Positions 25,032-39,114 of a stretch of DNA of 64,000 nt are shown in pieces. How positions within the stretch are numbered: position 1 is the first letter of the stretch; every line of letters starts with the position of its first letter. Origin of the DNA: Halegenticoccus soli (GTDB lineage Archaea > Halobacteriota > Halobacteria > Halobacteriales > Haloferacaceae); contig NZ_PEND01000011.1 of NCBI RefSeq assembly GCF_002844195.1, forward strand, positions 1 through 64,000. Reading direction: 5' to 3'. The notes beneath the pieces were generated by a model. That model was not told where the DNA came from. It did not search any database and worked only from the letters and a program-made list of their open reading frames with translations. Both the position numbers and the translations under genes were made by a program.

Positions 25032-26831
25032 ATGGCACACCGGACGCGAGACCGCGTCCTCCGGGTCGACCTCTCCGACGGGACCGTCCGGCGCGAGCGT
25101 GTCCCGCAGTCGTGGCGCCGACGGTTCGTCGGCGGGAAGGGGCTCGGTGCGCGGTACCTGTACCGGGACGTCCCCGCCGGCGCGGATCCGCTCGGGCCCG
25201 AGAATGTCCTCGGATTCATGCTCGGTCCCCTGTCGGGCTACCTCCCGGGAGAATCGCGGTACGCGGCGGTGACCAAGTCGCCGCTCACGGGGGCGTTTCT
25301 CGACTCGTACAGCGGCGGGGAGTTCCCCGACAGGCTCGCCGGAGCCCTGGCCGACTGTCTCGGGCTGCTCGTCGCGGGGCGGGCGTCTGATCCCGTCGCG
25401 ATCGAGGTCGAAAACGGGACGGCGACGGTCGAACCGGCGGACTGCTGGGGCGAAGACGCCGTCTCGACGGACGAGCGCTACCCCGACGCCGCCGTCGCGT
25501 GCGTCGGACCGGCCGGCGAGCGGACGGTGAGCTACGCGACCATCGCCTCCGACGGGGGCGACCACCACGCGGGGCGCGGCGGCGCTGGCACGGTCATGGG
25601 CGCGAAGCGGCTGAAAGCGGTCGTCGCCCGGGGAGAACCGCCGGAGGGGCTACCCCGGCTCAGGGAGGCGTACGACGAGGCGTACAGGGAACACGACACC
25701 GGGCGCTGGCAGGCGGCGGGCGCGACCATCGAGAGCGTCGACTTCGCCAACGAGGTCGGCGTGCTCCCCACGAGAGGGTGGCAGACGAGCCAGTTCGACG
25801 GGGCGTCGGACATCGGCGTCGAGGCGGCGCGGGCGGCCGCGATGGGGCGTGAGCGCGACGGCGCGGTCCCCGGCGGTTTTCGCGTCGAAACGGACGACGG
25901 CGAGAGCGTCCCCCGCGGCGCGACGCCGATGACGCTCGGGGCGGGTCTCGGAATCGACGAGTTCGACGCGGTGGCGACGTTAGGCGCGGCCTGCGACCGG
26001 CTGGGCGTCGACGTCATCGACGCCGGCAGCGCCGTGGCGTGGGCCATGCGGGCGAGCGAGGACGGGCTCGTGGAGCGCGATCTCGCGTTCGGCGACGCCG
26101 CGGGCGCGCGCGACCTCCTCGAAGAGATCGCCCACCGCCGGGGACCGCTCGGGGACGCGCTCGCGGACGGCGTCGAGGCCGCAGCGGAGCGGTTCGGCGG
26201 CGGGGATCGAATCCCGACGGTCAAGTCGATGGCGCTCCCGGCGTACGATCCCCGGGGAGCGGTAGCGATGGCGCTCGCGTACGCGACGAGCGACCGCGGC
26301 GGCTGCCACCGTCGCGCTCGACCGATAGAGCGGGAGGTGTTCGCGGCCGACTCGTGGGACGCCGACGATCGCGTGACCGCGGTCGTCGACGCGCAGGACG
26401 CGCGATCCGTGCTGTGGAGCCTCGTCGTGGACGACTTCGCGGGCGAGACGCTCCGCGAGGACCTCGGAGCGGAGTGGCTGTCGGCGGTCGGTCTGTCGTA
26501 CGATCCCGACGACCTGCGGACGGCCGGCGAACGGATCTGGACGCTCGTGCGCCTGTTCAACGCGCGCGAGGGGTTCGCGCGCGACGACGACAGGCTTCCC
26601 CAGTTGCTGCGGGAACCGCTCGCCGACGGACCCGCCGCGGGGCGCGCCCTCGATCCGGACGGCTTCGAGAGACTGCTCGACGCGTACTACGCGGCCCGGG
26701 GGTGGAGTCCCGACGGTGTCCCCGCGAGGCGGACGGTCGAACGACTCGGCCTCGACGGCGTCGTCGACGCCGACACGCCGGTCGCGGACACCGTGGCCGT
26801 CGATCCGACGGAGGTGGCGTCCGGTGACTGA
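25032..26831 (+). CDS. Aldehyde:ferredoxin oxidoreductase homologue lacking Fe-S cysteines
   Basis: This 599-residue protein has the AOR N-terminal fold (F-V-G-G-K-G-L-G-A-R-Y-L-Y, G-P-E-N-V-L-G-F-M-L-G-P-L-S-G, T-K-S-P-L-T-G-A-F-L-D-S-Y-S-G-G), which binds the tungstopterin in this family. The C-terminal AOR domains are also present (N-E-V-G-V-L-P-T-R, L-G-I-D-E-F-D, R-L-F-N-A-R-E-G-F). The C-x2-C-x3-C motif and the late fourth cysteine that hold the [4Fe-4S] cluster are absent; those places read A-V-P-G-G-F and S-L-V-V-D-D-F. It may use another electron route or do a non-redox job. The ATG at 25032 gives the family start. Its stop overlaps the next gene. Confidence 0.8.
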   Translation: MAHRTRDRVLRVDLSDGTVRRERVPQSWRRRFVGGKGLGARYLYRDVPAGADPLGPENVLGFMLGPLSGYLPGESRYAAVTKSPLTGAFLDSYSGGEFPDRLAGALADCLGLLVAGRASDPVAIEVENGTATVEPADCWGEDAVSTDERYPDAAVACVGPAGERTVSYATIASDGGDHHAGRGGAGTVMGAKRLKAVVARGEPPEGLPRLREAYDEAYREHDTGRWQAAGATIESVDFANEVGVLPTRGWQTSQFDGASDIGVEAARAAAMGRERDGAVPGGFRVETDDGESVPRGATPMTLGAGLGIDEFDAVATLGAACDRLGVDVIDAGSAVAWAMRASEDGLVERDLAFGDAAGARDLLEEIAHRRGPLGDALADGVEAAAERFGGGDRIPTVKSMALPAYDPRGAVAMALAYATSDRGGCHRRARPIEREVFAADSWDADDRVTAVVDAQDARSVLWSLVVDDFAGETLREDLGAEWLSAVGLSYDPDDLRTAGERIWTLVRLFNAREGFARDDDRLPQLLREPLADGPAAGRALDPDGFERLLDAYYAARGWSPDGVPARRTVERLGLDGVVDADTPVADTVAVDPTEVASGD

Positions 26832-27612
26832 TCGGATCGACCTGGACGAACTCGACGCCGGCGGCGAGGCGGACGAGAAGTCGACGCTGAACCGGGGCGA
26901 CTGGTTCTGGAAGGGCGAAGGAGATCCCGAGGACGAACCCGCTCCGGAGACCGGGTCCGCTCCCGAGAACGAACCCGCACCGGAGGTCGAATCCGATCCG
27001 GAGGGCCGAGTCGATTCGGCGGACTCCGAGGAGGGGACCGACCCCGGGACGAGGAGGGGGACGACTGACGCGACGACCGGCGCGGAACCGACGCACAGAC
27101 CCCGCCCCCGCGTCCCCCGACGGAACGACGACAGGCCGGTCGGAATCCCGATCGAGCGAGGCGGAGGCGGCGGATCGGCCGCGGCGGAGCGCGAGCGGCG
27201 GTCCGAGACGGCTCCGCAAGCCGAGGCGAGCGGACCGCACGGCGGGGGAGCCGACGGGATGACGCTGGCGTTCACCTACGGGGCGCTCAGACGGCTCTCG
27301 AATCCGCGAGCGGCGCTCGCCGACGCCGAGCGGTGGACGGACTGGATCGGGCTCGTCGGCGGCGTGGACGCCCACGTGCTGAACAAGTTCCAGCGGGACA
27401 ACGGTGTCGACGTCGACTTCTTCAACGGAACCGGAACCGATCCGGTGGAGCGGCTCGCGGAGATCGACGAGCGCTCGATGTTCTTCGCCGAACGGATGGC
27501 GCTCGTCGGGGTGACGGAGTCGGACGAGCCGATCGCCGACGCCGCCGGCTGGGAGTTCGTCCCGCTCGAAGTCGCCGCGGAGAAGGCCGGGTGGGAGGTG
27601 CTCGACGATTGA
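26824..27612 (+). CDS. Conserved haloarchaeal protein with acidic linker (DUF7124-like)
   Basis: This 262-residue protein has a disordered, P/E/D-rich N-terminal 140 residues with the repeat-like P-A-P-E-x-x-x-x-P-E-N-E, and a folded C-terminal 120 residues beginning M-T-L-A-F-T-Y-G-A-L-R-R-L. It includes W-T-D-W-I-G-L-V-G-G-V and ends A-A-E-K-A-G-W-E-V. The C-terminal part resembles a haloarchaeal family I recall as DUF7124; this naming is tentative. The GTG start overlaps the AOR-like gene by eight bases, suggesting that the two proteins are made together and may act together. Confidence 0.6.
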   Translation: MTDRIDLDELDAGGEADEKSTLNRGDWFWKGEGDPEDEPAPETGSAPENEPAPEVESDPEGRVDSADSEEGTDPGTRRGTTDATTGAEPTHRPRPRVPRRNDDRPVGIPIERGGGGGSAAAERERRSETAPQAEASGPHGGGADGMTLAFTYGALRRLSNPRAALADAERWTDWIGLVGGVDAHVLNKFQRDNGVDVDFFNGTGTDPVERLAEIDERSMFFAERMALVGVTESDEPIADAAGWEFVPLEVAAEKAGWEVLDD

Positions 27613-28687: not shown

Positions 28688-29917
28688 TCAGTACAGCGGA
28701 AACGACCGCCGGTTCCGCGGCGGCACGTAGAAGTTCGCCCGCGAGGCGACCCTGATGAACTCGAGGATGCCGTTGTTCTTGCGGTCCGTGATCCCCTCGT
28801 GCTCCTTTCTGACGTACCAGCCGTTCATCGCCTTCCGAGTCCGCCGGAAGTCGTCGAGCCGCCGCTGAAGCGAGACGAAGTGGACGCCGGCCCGGCCGCC
28901 GTCGACCGTGTTGAAGTCCCGGCGGAGGACGATCGGCTCGCCGTCGCGGCGGACCTGCGCGACCTTCTCGTGGTGACCGACGACGCCGTGTTCGCGGCCG
29001 TGGTCCCGGACGCGGTCGCTGAACGGAACGTCGTCGCCGAAGCTCGACACGTCGGCCGGCGAAAACTCGGGCGAGAACATCCGCGCGACCCGCCCCGCGT
29101 CGGCGAGCCCCTCCCACCACGCGTCGAGGCGCTGGCGGAGGTGGCTGACGTGCATCGTCGTGCCGTCGGCGAACGGTTCCGAGTCGATGGCGACGCGGTC
29201 CTCGCCCGCCTGCGTGCGCCGACGCCCCGAGAAGAAGCCCATGAACATCGGCGCGTCGTCCGGGACGCCCCACTCCGGAATCCCCTCGGCGTCGGCGTGC
29301 GCCGCGGGCAACCCCTCCCCCAGGAACCCCGTCCGGCGCTCGGAAACCGAGAACACGTCGCCGAGGCGGCGTTCGACGGCGACGCCGTTCAACGTCGAGC
29401 GCGATCCGAACATGGCGCCGTCGACGGCCGTCAGGTGGGAGGGAACGTCGCTCGAAAGGACGAGCGCGGCGTCGAACGCTAGGAGGTCGGGGTCGTCGGT
29501 CCGCGAGAGGACCTGCGGCGGCTCGATCGGCGCGCGGTCGAGGGCCCCGACCCGCTCGAAATACGAGGTCCCCCACGCGAGCGCGTGAAAGACCCCGGCC
29601 GGCCGCCAGTCGTAGGCGGATTCCAGCGTCCGCATCGCCCGCTCGACCGTCCGGGCCGCCTCGGTCGAGGGTTCGGCGTCGAGCCGGAGCAGGAGGAGCC
29701 GCCGGTGGCGCGGCTGGACGGCGTTTCCCGCGTCGTCCGTCGGAAGCCATGCCTCCTGTGCGAACTGCCTGCGCGGCAGCCGCTCCGCGTGCGGGTTCGG
29801 CGGCAGCCCCTCCACGCCCGGTTCCGGATCGGGCCGAAGGAGTCGGCTACAGCCGGATAACCCCGCCGCCCCGGCTGCGGCCGCCAGGCGACGGAGCGCC
29901 TTTCGTCTGGTCTCCAT
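28688..29917 (-). CDS. DyP-type peroxidase-like Tat lipoprotein
   Basis: This 409-residue protein begins with an arginine-rich signal ending in a lipobox-like L-S-G-C (residues about 4-23), so it is probably exported by Tat and lipid-anchored. The C-terminal third resembles dye-decolourising peroxidases. It has a G-H-H-E-K segment that could hold the proximal haem histidine, then V-L-R-R-D-F-N, then V-H-F-V-S-L-Q-R-R-L-D-D-F. The usual G-x-x-D-G motif is not obvious in the N-terminal half, so activity is uncertain. ATG 29917 is chosen over 29977 because the signal then begins properly. It is near, but not in, the formate dehydrogenase operon. Confidence 0.6.
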   Translation of the reverse strand: METRRKALRRLAAAAGAAGLSGCSRLLRPDPEPGVEGLPPNPHAERLPRRQFAQEAWLPTDDAGNAVQPRHRRLLLLRLDAEPSTEAARTVERAMRTLESAYDWRPAGVFHALAWGTSYFERVGALDRAPIEPPQVLSRTDDPDLLAFDAALVLSSDVPSHLTAVDGAMFGSRSTLNGVAVERRLGDVFSVSERRTGFLGEGLPAAHADAEGIPEWGVPDDAPMFMGFFSGRRRTQAGEDRVAIDSEPFADGTTMHVSHLRQRLDAWWEGLADAGRVARMFSPEFSPADVSSFGDDVPFSDRVRDHGREHGVVGHHEKVAQVRRDGEPIVLRRDFNTVDGGRAGVHFVSLQRRLDDFRRTRKAMNGWYVRKEHEGITDRKNNGILEFIRVASRANFYVPPRNRRSFPLY

Positions 29918-30015
29918 CGTGCTACTGTATGACACGGGCAGGGTGGACAAAAGCGTTGTTTCCGCCGGAAGGGGCACCCGACAGTTTATTTCTGTGGCCC
30001 CCGAATCCGCCGGTA

Positions 30016-30741: not shown

Positions 30742-31371
30742 CTACGTGACCATCTGCGCGACGAGTTCGTCCTCGAACTCGACGAGCCCGCGGAGCACGT
30801 CCGCCCCCGCGAGGAACAGCGGCTCTGCGGTCTCCTCGTGGACGTCCGCCGCGAAGTCGTCGACCCACGTCGACAGGTGCTCGTCGATGAAGACGCGCTC
30901 GTATCCGAACGCCTCCTCCGCGCCGTTTCGCTGGCGCTCGACGAGGTGTCTGAGGAAGGCGAGTTCGACTGCGACGAAGTCGTTCTCCTCGCCGTAATCT
31001 CCGGGCGGTACCCAGCCGGCGGCGCGGTAGCTCGCCTCGACCTTCGCCAGCCCGGGGCCGAGGAAGTCGGTGTCCTCCCGGTAGTACGTCTCGTTCGGGA
31101 GCACTGGAGGGCGCGGGCCGACGAACACCCGCGTGTACTCCGTCCTGAGGTCCTCCCGAACCTCCGCTATCGGACGGTCGCGGTTCCCCTCGACGAACGA
31201 GTCGAGCGCCGCGAACCCGGCGTCGAGGTGCTCGTTGACCGAGTCCTCGGGCACGAGCACGTCGCCGGTCAGCACCGAGTCGAGGAACGCGGCGGTCGGG
31301 ACGTCCCAGAACACCTCGATGACGAAGTCGATCAGTTCGAGGCGGGCGTCGTAGACGGCGGCGGCATCCAT
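30742..31371 (-). CDS. TorD/DmsD-family molybdoenzyme chaperone
   Basis: This 209-residue all-helical protein matches the TorD family. It has the E-Y-T-R-V-F-V-G-P-R-P-P-V-L-P-N-E-T-Y-Y segment and a later D-F-V-A-V-E-L-A-F-L-R-H-L, corresponding to the conserved E-x-x-x-P-x-x-S and D-H-[LI] regions. TorD proteins bind the Tat signal of a molybdenum or tungsten enzyme until its cofactor is inserted. The likely client is the formate dehydrogenase alpha subunit encoded divergently nearby. Its ATG overlaps the stop of the upstream Fe-S protein (ATGA). Confidence 0.85.
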   Translation of the reverse strand: MDAAAVYDARLELIDFVIEVFWDVPTAAFLDSVLTGDVLVPEDSVNEHLDAGFAALDSFVEGNRDRPIAEVREDLRTEYTRVFVGPRPPVLPNETYYREDTDFLGPGLAKVEASYRAAGWVPPGDYGEENDFVAVELAFLRHLVERQRNGAEEAFGYERVFIDEHLSTWVDDFAADVHEETAEPLFLAGADVLRGLVEFEDELVAQMVT

Positions 31372-33494
31372 CACCGACCACCCCGTTCGAAGAGCAGCGT
31401 CGCGCGACACTGCCCGCAGTACTCGAAGATACTCCGATCGGCGTCGGGCGCGATTCCCTCGACGAGATCGCCGACCTCGTCGCGGATCTTCTCCGCCGAA
31501 CCCCGACTCGTGAACGGCGTGCCGCAGCGGGCGCACTCGAGCATCTCGCCTTCGAAGACCGTGACCCACCGATCGCCGTCGCGGTTCTCCGGGAGCAACG
31601 ACAGGTCGAGACCCGACTCCATCGTGATCGCCGTCTCCGGGCATCCCGACTCGCACAGCCCGCAGTTGACGCAGTCTTCGTGGTCGAACTGTAGGTCGCC
31701 GTCGGTCGTCCGGCGTATCGCGTCGGCCGGACAGAGGTTCGAACACGTCGGGGTGAGGTTGCACGCCTCGCTCACCTCCATCCGTCCGAAGGTCTCCAGC
31801 CCGCGGATGACGCTCCGCTCGGGTTCGACGCGTTCGAGGAGCGCACGGACGCTCTCGAGCGCCCAGTCGTGGGTGTTGAACGGCGGGTTCGGCTCGTCCG
31901 CGTCGACCCCGCCGGTCGCCTCGTGGTCGCCCGCCGGAACGGGCGACGGGTCGAGCCCCGCCTCGAACGCCGAGATCGCCTCGACGAACGAGTCCGGATC
32001 GTCCGACTCCGGCGCGAAGAAGGCGACACGCTCGCCCAGTCCGAGGTCGGCCGTCGCGACGTTGAGTCGGTCGACGAGGTCCGCCTTCGGATCCGGTCCA
32101 GAGTGCAGACACGCCTCGCCGCAGCCCACGAGCGCGACGCCGTCGGCGCCGGCCGCGAGCGCGTGGAGGACGTGCGCTTCGCCCGCGGTGTCGGCGCAGT
32201 TCACCCGGACCGGGAGGATCGGCGGGTACCGGACGTCGGCACCGCTCGCGGCCTGTCGCCCGTAGGCGCGGAGCGCGGCGGCGGCCCGCTCGGAGCAGAC
32301 GAACGCCACGACGGGGGTTTCGATCCCGCTCCGTCCGCGGGAGAAGAGCCAGCCGCCGCCCTCGTCCGTCGGGTCGAGGAGCGCCTCCACCTCCCTGGCG
32401 ATGCGGCGGTTCGAGGGCTCTCTGAGCGTCACCGCGCCGGTCGGACAGGAACTGGTGCACGCCCCGCAGTTCTGACAGGCCACCTTGTCGAACGCCACGG
32501 AGTCGATCGTCGGGCGGTCGACCGCCTCGTGCGGACACGCCTCGACGCACGCGTTACAGCCCACCTGGCTGGACTCGCCCGCCGCGCAGACGTCCATCTC
32601 GAGGTCGAGGAAGTCCGGCTTCGTCACCCCGCCGAGCAGGCTCTCGACGGCCGCGATCGTCGCCCCGTCGACGGGGCTGGCGTAGAAACCGACACGGCCG
32701 CCGCGGGAACGCCGCGCCGCGCCCGGGTAGACGACCTGGTCGGCCGAAATCGTCCGCTCTACACCGTCCAGGTCGATGGCGTCCGTCGGGCAGACGTCGA
32801 CCCAGTCGCCGCCCTCGGCCTCCGGATCGACGTCGACCGGGTAGCTCGTGAGCGTCCCGTCGGGGCCCTCGCGGACGCACTCCATGCAGGAGATGCAATC
32901 GTCGGTGACGCGCGAACGGAGCGTCAGCTCGAAGTCCCCGAACTCGCCCTCGACGGAGACGACGCGACCGCGCTCGACCGCCACGTCCGAAAGCGAAACG
33001 TCGGCGTCGGCGAAATCGCGGCCGTCGGCGACGAGCGTGACGTCGGCGGTGTCGGCGAGCGCCGCCGCCGTCTCGGCGTCGCCGACGACGGCGACCCGAT
33101 CGCCGGCCTCGCGCGACACCGACCGCGAGACGGCCTCCTCGGCCAGTCCGGCGGACGTCGCGTTGATCAGCCGCGCCGTCTTCGCGCTCGCGGCGGCCCG
33201 TTCGTGAACCCAGCCGGCCCCCTCGCGGTGGTCCACGAACGCCGTCGCGTCGGGGTGAAGCCCCTTCTCCTCGGCGAGCGCCCGGAACTTCCGCTGACAC
33301 CGCGGCTCCGGGGTCGTGACGATGAGCTGATCCAGCTCGTACTCGTCGATGAGCCGCCCCATAGCCGGGAGGCCGTCCTCGCAGAGTAGACTAGAGCTGG
33401 CCACGACGTCGACGTTCTCGACCCCCTCTCGGACGCCCTCGAGGTCGATGTCGCAGGTGTCCCCGCAGGAACAGACGAATGCTCCGACGTTCAT
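31371..33494 (-). CDS. HdrA/MvhD-like multi-cluster Fe-S protein
   Basis: This 707-residue cytoplasmic protein combines several parts. An HdrA-like N-terminus (G-A-F-V-C-S-C-G-D-T-C-D-I) is followed by a shortened region where the FAD Rossmann fold should be (V-A-V-V-G-D-A-E-T-A-A-A-L). Then come ferredoxin pairs with C-x2-C-x3-C and C-x2-C-x2-C spacing, an MvhD/FrhD-like domain (V-V-A-F-V-C-S-E to about residue 545), another ferredoxin pair and a C-terminal C-x2-C zinc-ribbon-like end. HdrA and MvhD carry electrons in methanogen heterodisulfide reductase. Here the protein probably exchanges electrons with a formate dehydrogenase or ferredoxin. ATG 33494 is preferred to 33536 because the family start follows it. 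Confidence 0.75.
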   Translation of the reverse strand: MNVGAFVCSCGDTCDIDLEGVREGVENVDVVASSSLLCEDGLPAMGRLIDEYELDQLIVTTPEPRCQRKFRALAEEKGLHPDATAFVDHREGAGWVHERAAASAKTARLINATSAGLAEEAVSRSVSREAGDRVAVVGDAETAAALADTADVTLVADGRDFADADVSLSDVAVERGRVVSVEGEFGDFELTLRSRVTDDCISCMECVREGPDGTLTSYPVDVDPEAEGGDWVDVCPTDAIDLDGVERTISADQVVYPGAARRSRGGRVGFYASPVDGATIAAVESLLGGVTKPDFLDLEMDVCAAGESSQVGCNACVEACPHEAVDRPTIDSVAFDKVACQNCGACTSSCPTGAVTLREPSNRRIAREVEALLDPTDEGGGWLFSRGRSGIETPVVAFVCSERAAAALRAYGRQAASGADVRYPPILPVRVNCADTAGEAHVLHALAAGADGVALVGCGEACLHSGPDPKADLVDRLNVATADLGLGERVAFFAPESDDPDSFVEAISAFEAGLDPSPVPAGDHEATGGVDADEPNPPFNTHDWALESVRALLERVEPERSVIRGLETFGRMEVSEACNLTPTCSNLCPADAIRRTTDGDLQFDHEDCVNCGLCESGCPETAITMESGLDLSLLPENRDGDRWVTVFEGEMLECARCGTPFTSRGSAEKIRDEVGDLVEGIAPDADRSIFEYCGQCRATLLFERGGR

Positions 33495-33686: not shown

Positions 33687-33737
33687 GGACATCGAACGGC
33701 ACAGGAGGGCGACGGCCGGCGTTTGGGAGGACGCTCC

Positions 33738-36700
33738 ATGAGCGCCGAGCCCGTTTCGCTCGACCTCGACAGGCGGTCGTTCATGAAGGCAAGCGCGCTC
33801 GCCGGCACGGTCGCGCTCGGCGGCGGCGGTGCCGGACAGGTGCTCGCGCAGGGCGACGACGGGGAACCGGACGGGACCGACACGGAAGGGAAGCTCACCA
33901 AGTCCGTCTGCAACTTCTGTGCGGTCGGGTGCGGGTTCCGCGGCGAACGGAAGGGGAGCGCCTTCGTCGGACAGGAGCCGTGGTTCGAAAACCCCATCAA
34001 CAACGGCTCGCTCTGCTCGAAGGGCGCTTCGATCTACGGGAGCGAACACTCGCCGAAGCGGCTGAAACACCCGATGAAGAAGGAGGGCGGCGAGTGGAAG
34101 AAGATCACCTGGAACGAGGCGTACGACACCATCGTCTCCGAGCTGAAGCGGATCCGGAAGGAGTTCGGGCCGGACAGCACGATGTGGCTCGGCAGCGCCC
34201 ACCACTCCAACGAGGAGGCGTACGCCTTCAGGAAGTTCTGTTCGCTGTTCGGGACGAACAACTGCGACCACCAGGCGCGCATCTGCCACTCCACGACGGT
34301 CGCCGGGCTGGCGAACACGTGGGGCTTCGGCGCGATGACGAACACGATCAACGACTACCGGAACTTCGATCTCAACGTCATCATCGGCCAGAACCCCGCG
34401 GAGGCGCACCCGATCGCGATGCAGCACATCCTCGAAGGGCAGAACCGGGGCGGCACCATCGCCTCCGTCGACGCGCGGTTCACCAAGACGTCGGCGCATG
34501 CCGACCACTTCTACCGCATCAGGCCGGGAACCGACGTCGCCCTGATAATGGGGCTCATCCGGTACCTGCGCGAGCAGGGCGAACTCGACCGCGAGATGCT
34601 CGACGGGCGCGTGCAGGGGTGGGCCGACGTCGACCGCGAACTCGACCGGTACGACCTCGACACGGTCGCGGACATCACCTGGATCTCGAAGGAGGATATC
34701 AGGGAGCTGGGCGACCTCATCATCGAGAACAAGCCCAACGTCCAGATCGAGTGGGCGATGGGCGGAACGCAGCACAACAACGGCACGCAGAACATCCGAT
34801 CGTACGCGCTCTTGAGCCTCGCGTCGGGGAGCGCCGCGAGGAGCGGCGGCGGCCTGCAGGTGATGCGCGGACACGCGAACGTCCAGGGGGCGACGGACCT
34901 CGCGGTCGCCAGCCACATCCTCCCGGGGTACTACTCGGTCTCGTCGCCAGGATCGTGGCAGTACTGGGCCGACGTCTGGTCGAAGAGCCCGTACACCAGC
35001 GGGACGATCTCCTTCCGCGAACTGTACGACAAGTACGACCTGATGCCCCGGGACCTGTACACCAGACAGGACGAGTACGTCAACTACGAGAAGGACGGGG
35101 GCGAGGGCGACGCGGCCGGCTCCACGAGCGAAGGCATCGACGACTCGTTCCCGAGCGAGCGGTCGATGATGTTCCAGAACGGGTTGACCGTCGCCCGCTG
35201 GTTCGAGGCCGCGATTCCGAAGGAAAAGCGGCTGGGGAAGTCGGAGCTCTACCAGCCGAACCCCGTGAAGGCCGCGATCTTCTGGGGGCACTCGGCCAAC
35301 TCGATCAGCGAGATGGACAGGATGCGTCAGGCGATGGAGAACCTCGACCTGCTCGTGGTCGTGGACCTGTTCCCGTCGCTGGCGAGCGTCATGGCCGACC
35401 GCGACGAGGGCGTGATCCTCCTGCCCGCGGCGAGCCAGTACGAGCACTACCGGTCGGTCACGAACTCGCACCGATCGGTGCAGTGGAGTGAGCCGGTGCG
35501 CGAACCGTCGCACAACACCAAGCCGGATCTCCAGATCATCCAGGAGCTCGCCGACCGTCTCGGGTTCGGCGCCCACTTCGACTGGGGGAACGGTCCGGAG
35601 CTCTACAGCGGGAAGAGCACGTACCAGGACGTACTTCGGGAAATTAACCTCGGCGTTCGCACGATCGGCTACCAGCAGGATCCGGAACGGCTGGAGCGAC
35701 AGCACGAGTACGACTGGGCGTTCAGCACCGAGGACCTGAAGGCGAGAGAGGGCCCCGTCGCCGGGGAGTTCTGGCAGCTGCCGTGGCCGTGCTGGGGCCA
35801 AGGCCACCCGGGGACGCCGATCATCTGGCGCGACGATGTCGATCCGCGCGAGGGCGGCCACGACTTCCGCACCCGGTGGGGCGTCCAGGCGCCGACGCCG
35901 GAGGAGTGGAACGGGATGACGACCCCGACGAAGAACTACCCCCTGCGGGCGACGTTCGACCGGCAGGGACAGAGCGGTCTCGACCTGGTCCGGACGCCGT
36001 ACCAGCCGAACTGGTGGAACGGCGGGGAGGTCCAGGGCGTACCGCAGTACCCGGGCTACACGACCGCGCTGCCGGACGACCCGCGAAACTCCGACGCGAT
36101 CGCGCTCCCGGTTCAGTACGCGCTCGATCCGACGAAGTCGGTGTACGACGCGGCGCAGGCGGTGAACGAGAAGTACGACTGGGCCGACTACGACCTCGCC
36201 CAGTACGAGCCGTACGACAACCCGCAGCCGGACCCGCCGACGGGTCGGGGGCGGGCGCGAGCCGTCGCGTGGAACTTCCTAGATCCGATTCCGGTTCACC
36301 GCGAGCCGATCGAGAGTCCGCGGCCGGACCTGGTCGAAACGTGGCCCGCCAACGGCCAGCAGCGGAACTTCTACCGCCTCGATCAGAACAACGCGCCCGT
36401 CCAAAAGCGGGCGACGACGAGAGCCGCCGAGGAGAACTTCGACGTGATCATGACCACCGGCCGGCAGGTCGAACACCAGGGCGGCGGATCCGAGAGCCGC
36501 TCGAACGTCTTTCTGGCGGATCTCCAGCCGCACATGTACGCCGAGATCACGCCGAAGATGGCGGACGAACTCGGCGTCGACGGCGGCGACCTCGTCGTCG
36601 TCTCGACCACCAACCGCGGCTCCGTGCTGGTGAAAGCGAGGGTGACGAACCGGCCGAACGACAGGGAGACCTTCCTCCCGTTCCACTGGGGCGGCGTCTT

Positions 36701-36974
36701 CAAGGGCAAGAACCTGGAGGAGCGGTACCCCGACGGGACCGTCCCGTTCGCCATCGGCGACAGCGTCAACATCATCACGTCGCCGGGATACGACGTCGAA
36801 ACCCAGATGCAGGAGACGAAGGCGGCGATGGTGAAGATCCGCCCGGCGACGCAGGAGCTTGTCGACGAACTCAACATGGACGTCGATCTGTCGACGTTCG
36901 AGTTCCCGCAGGACCGCGACGGCATCGGCACGCAGAAGGACTTCGACGTTCGCGACTCGAAAACAGTTCAATGA
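33738..36974 (+). CDS. Formate dehydrogenase alpha subunit (Mo/W, Tat-exported)
   Basis: This 1078-residue bis-pterin enzyme has a twin-arginine signal (D-R-R-S-F-M-K-A-S, residues 11-19). The [4Fe-4S] ligands are C58, C61, C65 and C93. The metal ligand region A-R-I-C-H-S-T-T-V-A-G-L is diagnostic of formate dehydrogenases, with C183 (codon TGC) in the place of selenocysteine and H184 next to it. A C-terminal dinucleotide-binding domain follows. The protein acts outside the membrane, oxidising formate to CO2 and passing electrons to the beta subunit. The ATG at 33738 starts the Tat signal cleanly. Confidence 0.88.
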   Translation: MSAEPVSLDLDRRSFMKASALAGTVALGGGGAGQVLAQGDDGEPDGTDTEGKLTKSVCNFCAVGCGFRGERKGSAFVGQEPWFENPINNGSLCSKGASIYGSEHSPKRLKHPMKKEGGEWKKITWNEAYDTIVSELKRIRKEFGPDSTMWLGSAHHSNEEAYAFRKFCSLFGTNNCDHQARICHSTTVAGLANTWGFGAMTNTINDYRNFDLNVIIGQNPAEAHPIAMQHILEGQNRGGTIASVDARFTKTSAHADHFYRIRPGTDVALIMGLIRYLREQGELDREMLDGRVQGWADVDRELDRYDLDTVADITWISKEDIRELGDLIIENKPNVQIEWAMGGTQHNNGTQNIRSYALLSLASGSAARSGGGLQVMRGHANVQGATDLAVASHILPGYYSVSSPGSWQYWADVWSKSPYTSGTISFRELYDKYDLMPRDLYTRQDEYVNYEKDGGEGDAAGSTSEGIDDSFPSERSMMFQNGLTVARWFEAAIPKEKRLGKSELYQPNPVKAAIFWGHSANSISEMDRMRQAMENLDLLVVVDLFPSLASVMADRDEGVILLPAASQYEHYRSVTNSHRSVQWSEPVREPSHNTKPDLQIIQELADRLGFGAHFDWGNGPELYSGKSTYQDVLREINLGVRTIGYQQDPERLERQHEYDWAFSTEDLKAREGPVAGEFWQLPWPCWGQGHPGTPIIWRDDVDPREGGHDFRTRWGVQAPTPEEWNGMTTPTKNYPLRATFDRQGQSGLDLVRTPYQPNWWNGGEVQGVPQYPGYTTALPDDPRNSDAIALPVQYALDPTKSVYDAAQAVNEKYDWADYDLAQYEPYDNPQPDPPTGRGRARAVAWNFLDPIPVHREPIESPRPDLVETWPANGQQRNFYRLDQNNAPVQKRATTRAAEENFDVIMTTGRQVEHQGGGSESRSNVFLADLQPHMYAEITPKMADELGVDGGDLVVVSTTNRGSVLVKARVTNRPNDRETFLPFHWGGVFKGKNLEERYPDGTVPFAIGDSVNIITSPGYDVETQMQETKAAMVKIRPATQELVDELNMDVDLSTFEFPQDRDGIGTQKDFDVRDSKTVQ

Positions 36975-36983
36975 GGCGATAAA

Positions 36984-37655
36984 ATGTCAGCGGAAAACCC
37001 GAAAGACAGGGAGGTCATGCGGCAGGGCGTCCGGAGCGTCGGCGAGGGGACGCGGATCTTCCCCGACGTCGAGGCCTGCATCGACTGCGGCGGTTGCGTC
37101 GTCGCCTGTAAACGCACCTGGGACATCGGTCCGGGCGAACAGCGGATCAGCATCTCGACGATGCTCGAGGGTGAGGAAGCCGCGGCGGGACTGAACGCGA
37201 GCAGCGCGAAGGCGATCCAGCAGGGGAAGAGCCCCGGCGAGACGAGCATCCCGATGCAGTGTTACCACTGCGAGAACGCGCCCTGCGTGTCCGTCTGTCC
37301 GACGGACTCGCTCCTCAAGAAGGACAGCGGCTTCGTGGAGGTCCGCGACAACCTCTGTATCGGCTGTCAGTACTGCCTGTCCGCGTGTCCGTTCGGGGCG
37401 CCGCAGTTCCCGAACGCGGACGACGGGGCCGCAAAACTGTTCGGCACCGGCGGGACGATGGACAAGTGCACGATGTGCGAGGAGCGCCAGGAGGTCGGGA
37501 AGGGGCCGGCCTGCGCCGAGGAGTGCGCGACGGACGCCATCCTCGTCGGAACGTCGGAGCAGATCGCCGAGGAGCTCGACCGCCGGGACAGCGGGACGTT
37601 CTTCAACGACGCGGCGATGGAGATCATCTTCGGCGAGGACGCGGAGGTGTTCTGA
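36984..37655 (+). CDS. Formate dehydrogenase beta subunit (four [4Fe-4S])
   Basis: This 223-residue ferredoxin-like subunit has four cysteine clusters: C-I-D-C-G-G-C-V-V-A-C-K, C-Y-H-C-E-N-A-P-C-V-S-V-C-P, C-I-G-C-Q-Y-C-L-S-A-C-P and C-T-M-C…C-A-E-E-C-A. It carries electrons from the alpha subunit to the membrane. It has no signal of its own and is probably exported with the alpha subunit. It lies nine bases after the alpha gene, and its stop overlaps the next start (TGATG). Confidence 0.88.
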   Translation: MSAENPKDREVMRQGVRSVGEGTRIFPDVEACIDCGGCVVACKRTWDIGPGEQRISISTMLEGEEAAAGLNASSAKAIQQGKSPGETSIPMQCYHCENAPCVSVCPTDSLLKKDSGFVEVRDNLCIGCQYCLSACPFGAPQFPNADDGAAKLFGTGGTMDKCTMCEERQEVGKGPACAEECATDAILVGTSEQIAEELDRRDSGTFFNDAAMEIIFGEDAEVF

Positions 37656-38098
37656 TGGACCGCGATCTCCCCGAAACGGCCGGCTACAGCCCGCTCGCCG
37701 TTCTCGGCAGCGCCGTCGGCGGGCTCGTCATCGCGTTCCTCTCGGTCTGGTGGGCCGCCGGCAACGCGGTGTCGGCCGAATCGCTCTTCCGGGTCGCCCC
37801 GACGGTCGAAAACAGGGGCGTCGGGTCCGACTGGGTGGCGGGGAACACGATCGAGTGGTTGGATTTCCTCATTGCGCTCACCCACGCGGCCGACGTCATC
37901 ATGGGCGTGTTCATCCTCGTGATGGTGTTCGTCCACTGGGCCGCGTTCCGTCGACTCGCGGGACGGATGCGTCGACCGGGAGAACCGAACCGGGGCGACG
38001 GCGTCGCCGCAGACGGCGGCGGGACGGCCAAACCTGTCGACAGTAGCGGGACGACCGAAAACGCCGGCGGGGACGATTCGGGGGGTGAACGGCCGTGA
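37655..38098 (+). CDS. Membrane protein of the formate dehydrogenase operon
   Basis: This 147-residue protein has two hydrophobic segments (about residues 9-30 and 70-92) and a disordered acidic tail. The second reads W-L-D-F-L-I-A-L-T-H-A-A-D-V-I-M-G, with a histidine that could ligate haem. It may replace the transmembrane anchor normally found on the beta subunit, or be a second membrane subunit. It overlaps both neighbours (TGATG before, GTGA after). No family match is certain. Confidence 0.65.
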   Translation: MDRDLPETAGYSPLAVLGSAVGGLVIAFLSVWWAAGNAVSAESLFRVAPTVENRGVGSDWVAGNTIEWLDFLIALTHAADVIMGVFILVMVFVHWAAFRRLAGRMRRPGEPNRGDGVAADGGGTAKPVDSSGTTENAGGDDSGGERP

Positions 38099-39114
38099 CG
38101 AATCTCGACCACGGGAAGTTCACGCACGTGACGACCGTCTTCCACTCGCTTCTGGCGCTCGACGTGTTTGCGCTGTTCTTCACGGGGTACGGTATCATGT
38201 TCAACGACGAACTCTGGTGGCTCGTCGTTCTCCTCGGCGGCTATCAGGGGGTCGCCGCACTCCATCGGATCGCCGGATTCGGGCTCGTCGCGCTCATCGG
38301 CTTCTGGATGCTGCTCATGCTCACTACCTCGACCGGACGGGGGAACTTCCGCGAGATCGTTCCGACCGGCGACGACGTCGCGGCTTTCGTTCAGGACGTC
38401 AAGTTCGTGCTGGGGCGGGCCGACGAGCGTCACCCGAACGCGCGGCAGTTCGCCGGGTACAAGGCCGACGAGGTGCCGCTCCTGTCGTACGTCGGGAAGG
38501 GCGTCGTGTTCATCTTCTCCGTCGAACTGACCCTGCTCACCGTCTCGGGGTTACTCATCTGGAGTAAAACCGGCGTGATGCAGTTCTTCGCGACGAAGAC
38601 GGCGGCCATGGCGTTCGTCGTCTTCCACGGGCTGCTCGGCGTCATCATGCTGATGGGCGTGATGTTCCACATCTTCGAACACGGCTTCCACCCGGCGTTC
38701 TACCCGGTCGAGACCAAGGCGTTCATCCCCCGGAGCATGATCCCGGAGGCCCACGGCCACGAGGGGGAACGCGAGGCGGACACGACCGGGATCGAACGGC
38801 TGACGCTTTCGCCCTCCTGGAGCTGGGTGACGAACCTCATGGGCGCCTTCGTCGTCATCGGAATCGTGAGCGTCCTCATGGGGAGTATCTTCGACGAAGG
38901 CTACCCGGTGCCGAACGAACTCGCCGTGGGTGGCGGGCCGTCGAACCTGCTTCTCACCGTCGGGATCAACATCGGCGTGTTCGTGCTGTTCGTCGGCATC
39001 GTCCTCTCGATGTACGGAAACCTCGTCCGAATCCGCTGGGAACGACAGCTGGAACGGGAGCGTCCGCGGACGACGGCCGACGGCGGACGAGTCGCTGAGA
39101 GTGGAGAGGACTGA
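38095..39114 (+). CDS. Formate dehydrogenase gamma subunit, cytochrome b
   Basis: This 339-residue integral membrane protein resembles FdnI/FdoI-type cytochrome b subunits but is longer. Its N-terminal half has two spans with an H-S-L-L-A-L-D segment and L-H-R-I-A-G-F. A second half has V-F-H-G-L-L-G-V-I-M-L and M-F-H-I-F-E-H-G-F-H, with histidines placed for haem and quinone binding, and a further span pair follows near the C-terminus. It takes electrons from the beta subunit to the quinone pool. The GTG start overlaps the preceding stop (GTGA). Confidence 0.83.
   Translation: MTNLDHGKFTHVTTVFHSLLALDVFALFFTGYGIMFNDELWWLVVLLGGYQGVAALHRIAGFGLVALIGFWMLLMLTTSTGRGNFREIVPTGDDVAAFVQDVKFVLGRADERHPNARQFAGYKADEVPLLSYVGKGVVFIFSVELTLLTVSGLLIWSKTGVMQFFATKTAAMAFVVFHGLLGVIMLMGVMFHIFEHGFHPAFYPVETKAFIPRSMIPEAHGHEGEREADTTGIERLTLSPSWSWVTNLMGAFVVIGIVSVLMGSIFDEGYPVPNELAVGGGPSNLLLTVGINIGVFVLFVGIVLSMYGNLVRIRWERQLERERPRTTADGGRVAESGED

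Follow-up and report, generated by a model that had tools for sequence, protein, structure and literature searches.

An aldehyde:ferredoxin oxidoreductase branch in Halobacteriales without iron-sulfur cluster ligands and linked to formate dehydrogenases

The 64,000-nucleotide stretch of Halegenticoccus soli DNA analyzed here (contig NZ_PEND01000011.1, hereafter the window) encodes a full-length homolog of aldehyde:ferredoxin oxidoreductase (AOR) that has lost all four ligands of the [4Fe-4S] cluster. The first-pass annotation had claimed this from the sequence alone, and alignment to the Pyrococcus furiosus enzyme (PfAOR, 1AOR), the Pfam domains, and an identical loss in 72 of 72 orthologs bear it out. 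The orthologs also lack a catalytic acid, and their genes are associated with formate dehydrogenase (FDH), MobA, and YqeC.

Gene and predicted fold

The open reading frame runs from ATG to TGA at positions 25032-26831 of the + strand and specifies an Fe-S-free AOR-fold protein of 599 residues. Enzymes of the AOR/WOR family carry W- or Mo-bis-MPT bridged by Mg and oxidize aldehydes with ferredoxin. Both AOR domains are detected by Pfam (AFOR_N, 2.4e-60; AFOR_C, 4.1e-95) and were the only ones returned, the FdhD-NarQ domain (PF02634) being absent from the protein. Its closest solved relatives, 9MQX, 1AOR, and 1B25 among them, are AORs. The AlphaFold2 model, built from an alignment of 43 sequences (pLDDT 94.4, pTM 0.94), superimposes on 1B25, 9MQX, and 1AOR over almost its whole length (VIA Z ~50, TM ~0.9). 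As far as prediction can say, the AOR fold is intact in the cluster-free protein; in domains and fold it conforms to the AOR/WOR family.

Cluster ligands and active site

The cluster ligands of PfAOR are C288, C291, C295, and C494. In the alignment to 1AOR, C288 pairs with D276, C291 falls opposite a gap, C295 corresponds to G281, and C494 to D467; the ligand set of the AOR/WOR family is missing from all 72 orthologs examined. The loop that held C288, C291, and C295 in a CxxCxxxC arrangement now reads RDGAVPGGF (residues 275-283; 25854-25880, + strand), and the model predicts a β-strand at its end (residues 283-287). The second DxxGLC pterin/cluster motif, D489 to C494 in PfAOR, has become W462-S-L-V-V-D467-D468 (26415-26435, + strand), with Trp in place of D489 and Asp in place of C494; W462, D467, and D468 are invariant in 72/72 orthologs. 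No replacement cysteines occur at the cluster positions in this alignment, in agreement with the earlier remark that the remaining ones lie elsewhere. The clade-invariant cysteines (C157, C321, and C425, query numbering) occupy columns that are also Cys in several Cys-bearing AORs, in addition to their cluster ligands. Compensation by cysteines elsewhere was rejected on both grounds.

Two further losses, of E311 and E313, are absent from the first-pass annotation. The E311-Y312-E313 site is aligned with R295-G296-A297 (25914-25922, + strand). Arg295, which replaces E311, is invariant in 72/72 orthologs, and the catalytic E313 has given way to Ala, Gly, or Ser in all of them (A297 in the window protein). 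E313 is one of four second-shell residues regarded as conserved in the AOR family (PMC12096430, PMC13328260) and is the proposed proton acceptor in AOR (PMC12096430). The other three, T243, Y427, and H448, are kept in nearly all members, so that no ortholog has the full T243/E313/Y427/H448 set; H448 corresponds to H426 of the window protein (26307-26309, + strand). The pterin site is likewise preserved, with R76 in most members, the GRGG motif, and D338/G341/D343, and the first-pass statement that its motifs are well kept extends to most pocket residues across the clade. Conservation of 90% or more in 19 Cys-bearing AORs defines 52 columns, of which the clade keeps 40 at that level and a further three at 88-89%. 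Nine are clear losses: the four cysteines, E311, E313, T344, G242, and P257. The 72 orthologs have also acquired clade-specific invariant residues, including E234, R295, R427, W462, D467, and D468. Judged from the sequences, this pattern is that of a protein under selection, not of one in decay.

Phylogeny and distribution

An IQ-TREE analysis of 31 cluster-free orthologs, 5 sister sequences, and 14 other Cys-bearing sequences places the cluster-free proteins in a single clade (support 100/100), adjoined by a Cys-bearing sister clade (100/100) that keeps E313. Whether relatives with the same loss form a clade had been raised in the first-pass annotation; they do, and on this tree the loss of the cluster is shown to have arisen once. 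The 72 orthologs span many haloarchaeal genera, in the GTDB family of H. soli and in several further families of the order, and some are plasmid-borne. The best identity outside the order is 42% among 295 sampled genomes of the phylum, and the clade appears, by sequence comparison, to be confined to Halobacteriales. The source genome also holds five AOR paralogs with intact cysteines.

We note that a Cys-bearing AOR from outside the order (L116, G650:C28) already has W489 and Y93, and these two changes may therefore predate the loss of the cluster. In-frame stops were listed for some orthologs. In one of them (L095, G441, listed with one TGA) the reading frame is intact at 590 residues, and that TGA looks like the gene's normal stop codon, past which the search continued. 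Genome G042 carries two AOR-like copies (L048 and L049), each with its own FdnG less than 9 kb away.

Genomic context

The window carries an FdnGHI-like operon 8.7 kb from the AOR-like gene, and the FdnG-like, Fe-S, and cytochrome b561-type subunits together with a TorD-like chaperone are found within ~4-14 kb of it. The catalytic subunit (33723-36974, + strand) has a Tat-like N-terminus and an RICHSTT (Cys-His) motif; its best NCBIfam model is TIGR01591, with a score below the cut-off. It is followed on the + strand by an FdnH-like 4Fe-4S subunit (36984-37655), a small FDH-cluster protein that is predicted to lie in the membrane and has no Pfam hit (37655-38098), and a cytochrome b561-type, FdnI-like subunit (38095-39114). 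On the - strand are a TorD/NarJ-type molybdoenzyme chaperone (PF02613, 30742-31371) and a conserved protein with FlpD and ferredoxin domains (neighbor cluster c6, 31371-33494), which is encoded between the FDH operon and the AOR-like gene and may serve the FDH as an electron partner. A DUF7405 protein (28688-29977, - strand) is conserved near the AOR-like gene in several genera.

The flanks of ~35 of 53 ortholog loci contain YqeC, MobA, and/or FDH, in varying arrangements and on plasmids as well, compared with none of the five Cys-bearing sister loci; flank lengths are unequal between loci, and these figures are to be read as counts, not rates. One of six Cys-bearing paralog loci (L074) has a MobA-like hit (41%), ~4 kb beyond the end of the gene, and some orthologs have no YqeC, MobA, or FDH nearby. 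YqeC matches TIGR03172 above its cut-off, and the best NCBIfam match of MobA, TIGR02665, falls below. Every FDH reading frame near the AOR-like gene whose motif region was covered has the RxCH motif. The first-pass annotation had put forward the DUF7124-like gene (26824-27612, + strand), whose start overlaps the AOR-like stop, as a common partner. This did not hold: DUF7124 (cluster c5) overlaps or adjoins the AOR-like gene in only 10 of 34 loci of one set and 5 of 20 of another, and FDH, MobA, and YqeC are the more widespread neighbors. A conserved protein of ~190 residues without a Pfam hit (cluster c7) adjoins type-A FDH in L043, L056, L063, L064, L079, and others. A separate YqeC, MobA, and FDH cluster (L084, G000:C10:55000-74000) lies away from the AOR-like gene of the same genome.

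Across 167 genomes of the family, the AOR-like gene and YqeC occur together in 118, the AOR-like gene alone in 1, YqeC alone in 17, and neither in 31 (Fisher 2e-20; counts tallied by hand and uncorrected for phylogeny). YqeC is therefore present in 118/119 genomes with the AOR-like gene and in 17/48 without it. In genus g8, genomes with the AOR-like gene give two YqeC matches, one of which adjoins the gene in the locus read (L046). Co-occurrence with two types of FDH is near-perfect. The AOR-like gene is present in 102 of the 103 genomes that encode type-A FdhF (≥67% identity) or an FdnG ortholog, the sole exception being G144, which is 84% complete; genomes with neither have it in 17 cases and lack it in 47 (Fisher 7e-26, again uncorrected for phylogeny). 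All 35 FdnG genomes carry the gene, and 26 of 36 FdnG/AOR-like pairs are no more than 15 kb apart. A third FDH type, ~50% identical (e.g., L087), is found beside YqeC without an AOR-like gene.

Proposed function

The first-pass annotation argued that a protein without the ligands either passes electrons by a new route or has a role outside redox chemistry. That fork is still the right one, and both the genomic context and the missing E313 lean toward the non-redox side. We favor, with slightly less than even confidence, a reading in which the AOR fold has taken on a new task, as a holder of a Mo/W bis-pterin cofactor while FDH matures. It fits because the electron exit and the proton acceptor are lost, the pocket is kept, and MGD genes and FDH are nearby; association with FDH and MGD genes is also what characterizes FDH maturation factors. 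A haloarchaeal AOR branch would have given up electron transfer but retained its fold and the greater part of the bis-pterin pocket. The protein would bind Mo- or W-bis-pyranopterin, bis-MPT would be made into bis-MGD with MobA, and the cofactor would be held or finished, possibly through a terminal sulfur step with YqeC, and handed to particular FDHs. Counting against this reading are YqeC in 17 of the 48 genomes without the gene, the FDH type that does without it, and the loci that have no such neighbors.

The protein would thus serve as a maturation scaffold where FdhD, the sulfurtransferase that normally carries the FDH cofactor, was not found. Searches for FdhD with PF02634 gave no match in 167 genomes of the family or in 243 of the order, two samples that overlap, and TIGR00129 gave nothing above its cut-off in 40 genomes; the search was positive in 8 of 14 control genomes, archaea among them, and a very divergent FdhD could escape it. 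Many of the 243 Halobacteriales genomes without detected FdhD carry FDHs. Methylorubrum depends on FdhD both to sulfurate its FDH and to deliver the cofactor (PMC13197769). Since FdhD is needed there and was not detected here, haloarchaea would require another route, provided that the same sulfido ligand is present in their FDHs. That they exchanged FdhD for a module in which YqeC and MobA are joined by an AOR-fold protein that is redox-dead and holds the bis-pterin is a more doubtful proposal; if true, a Mo/W enzyme fold has been turned into a device for cofactor assembly and delivery. The AOR-like protein as a universal substitute for FdhD is contradicted by the YqeC-linked FDHs (~50% identity, L087) that have no AOR-like gene.

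The same residues can be read otherwise. The new invariant charged residues (E234, R295, R427, D467, and D468) lie close to the pocket motifs and could equally form a new catalytic site. Together with the retention of T243, Y427, and H448 in nearly all members, and with plasmid loci in which formate-THF ligase, dihydropteroate synthase, and FDH adjoin the gene, they would suit a catalyst of C1/formate metabolism that uses a Mo/W-bis-pterin and needs no Fe-S cluster. Such an enzyme could carry out a non-redox hydration or hydrolysis in which formate is produced or consumed; alternatively, it could be a redox enzyme that passes electrons straight to a small acceptor or to a docked protein. We consider it rather unlikely: the proposed proton acceptor of AOR (PMC12096430) is lost, no partner that binds NAD or flavin is a constant neighbor, and MobA and YqeC point to cofactor assembly. 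To our knowledge, known AORs have no nucleotide on the pterin. The near-perfect co-occurrence with two FDH types, the physical linkage, and the lost cluster and acid residues would also be expected of a pseudoenzyme, a structural or regulatory subunit of certain FDHs that no longer binds cofactor. This is unlikely, since R76 (in most members), GRGG, D338/G341/D343, and H448 would be superfluous in a cofactor-free scaffold.

An ordinary aldehyde oxidoreductase with an unseen electron route, such as an Fe-S partner subunit docking at the pterin, would account for the conserved fold and T243/Y427/H448. The ortholog loci compared have no constantly adjacent ferredoxin-type subunit, however, and E313 is gone from 72/72 members, which makes this very improbable. 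A sequencing error, named in the first-pass annotation among the things that could overturn its reading, can be set aside along with chance, as all 72 orthologs share the loss; with the invariant new residues added and nothing found in its favor, error or a decaying pseudogene has a negligible probability.

Comparison with known systems

Published accounts of the AOR family attribute both cofactor and cluster to all its known members (PMC12096430, PMC13328260). A large cluster-free branch of single origin that lacks the catalytic acid would be the first found in our literature search, which returned neither cluster-less AORs nor haloarchaeal FdhD; phage records gave no match. YqeC has no proven function (PMC11448449). 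The tie to FDH and MobA/YqeC makes both this function and haloarchaeal FDH maturation without detectable FdhD testable. The AOR-like protein may play a role in bis-MGD handling analogous to that of FdhD, although the two families are unrelated.

The clade shares with P. furiosus AOR (1AOR), FOR (1B25), and class I WORs the full-length fold, R76, GRGG, D338/G341/D343, T243, Y427, and H448. It differs from them in lacking the [4Fe-4S] ligands and E313, in the D489 to Trp and C494 to Asp changes, and in its linkage to FDH, MobA, and YqeC. Its closest relatives are the Cys-bearing haloarchaeal sister proteins (Natrialba magadii NMAG_RS18645, L083; L059, L060, L067, and L071), at 41-46% identity. 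Both have Y93, H182, and H183; unlike the cluster-free proteins, the sisters keep the four cysteines and E313 and have no FDH, MobA, or YqeC nearby. The BamB/YdhV branch (PMC12096430) likewise departs from the standard second shell, but gains a Cys ligand to the metal, whereas the cluster-free clade keeps T243/Y427/H448 and has lost the cluster instead.
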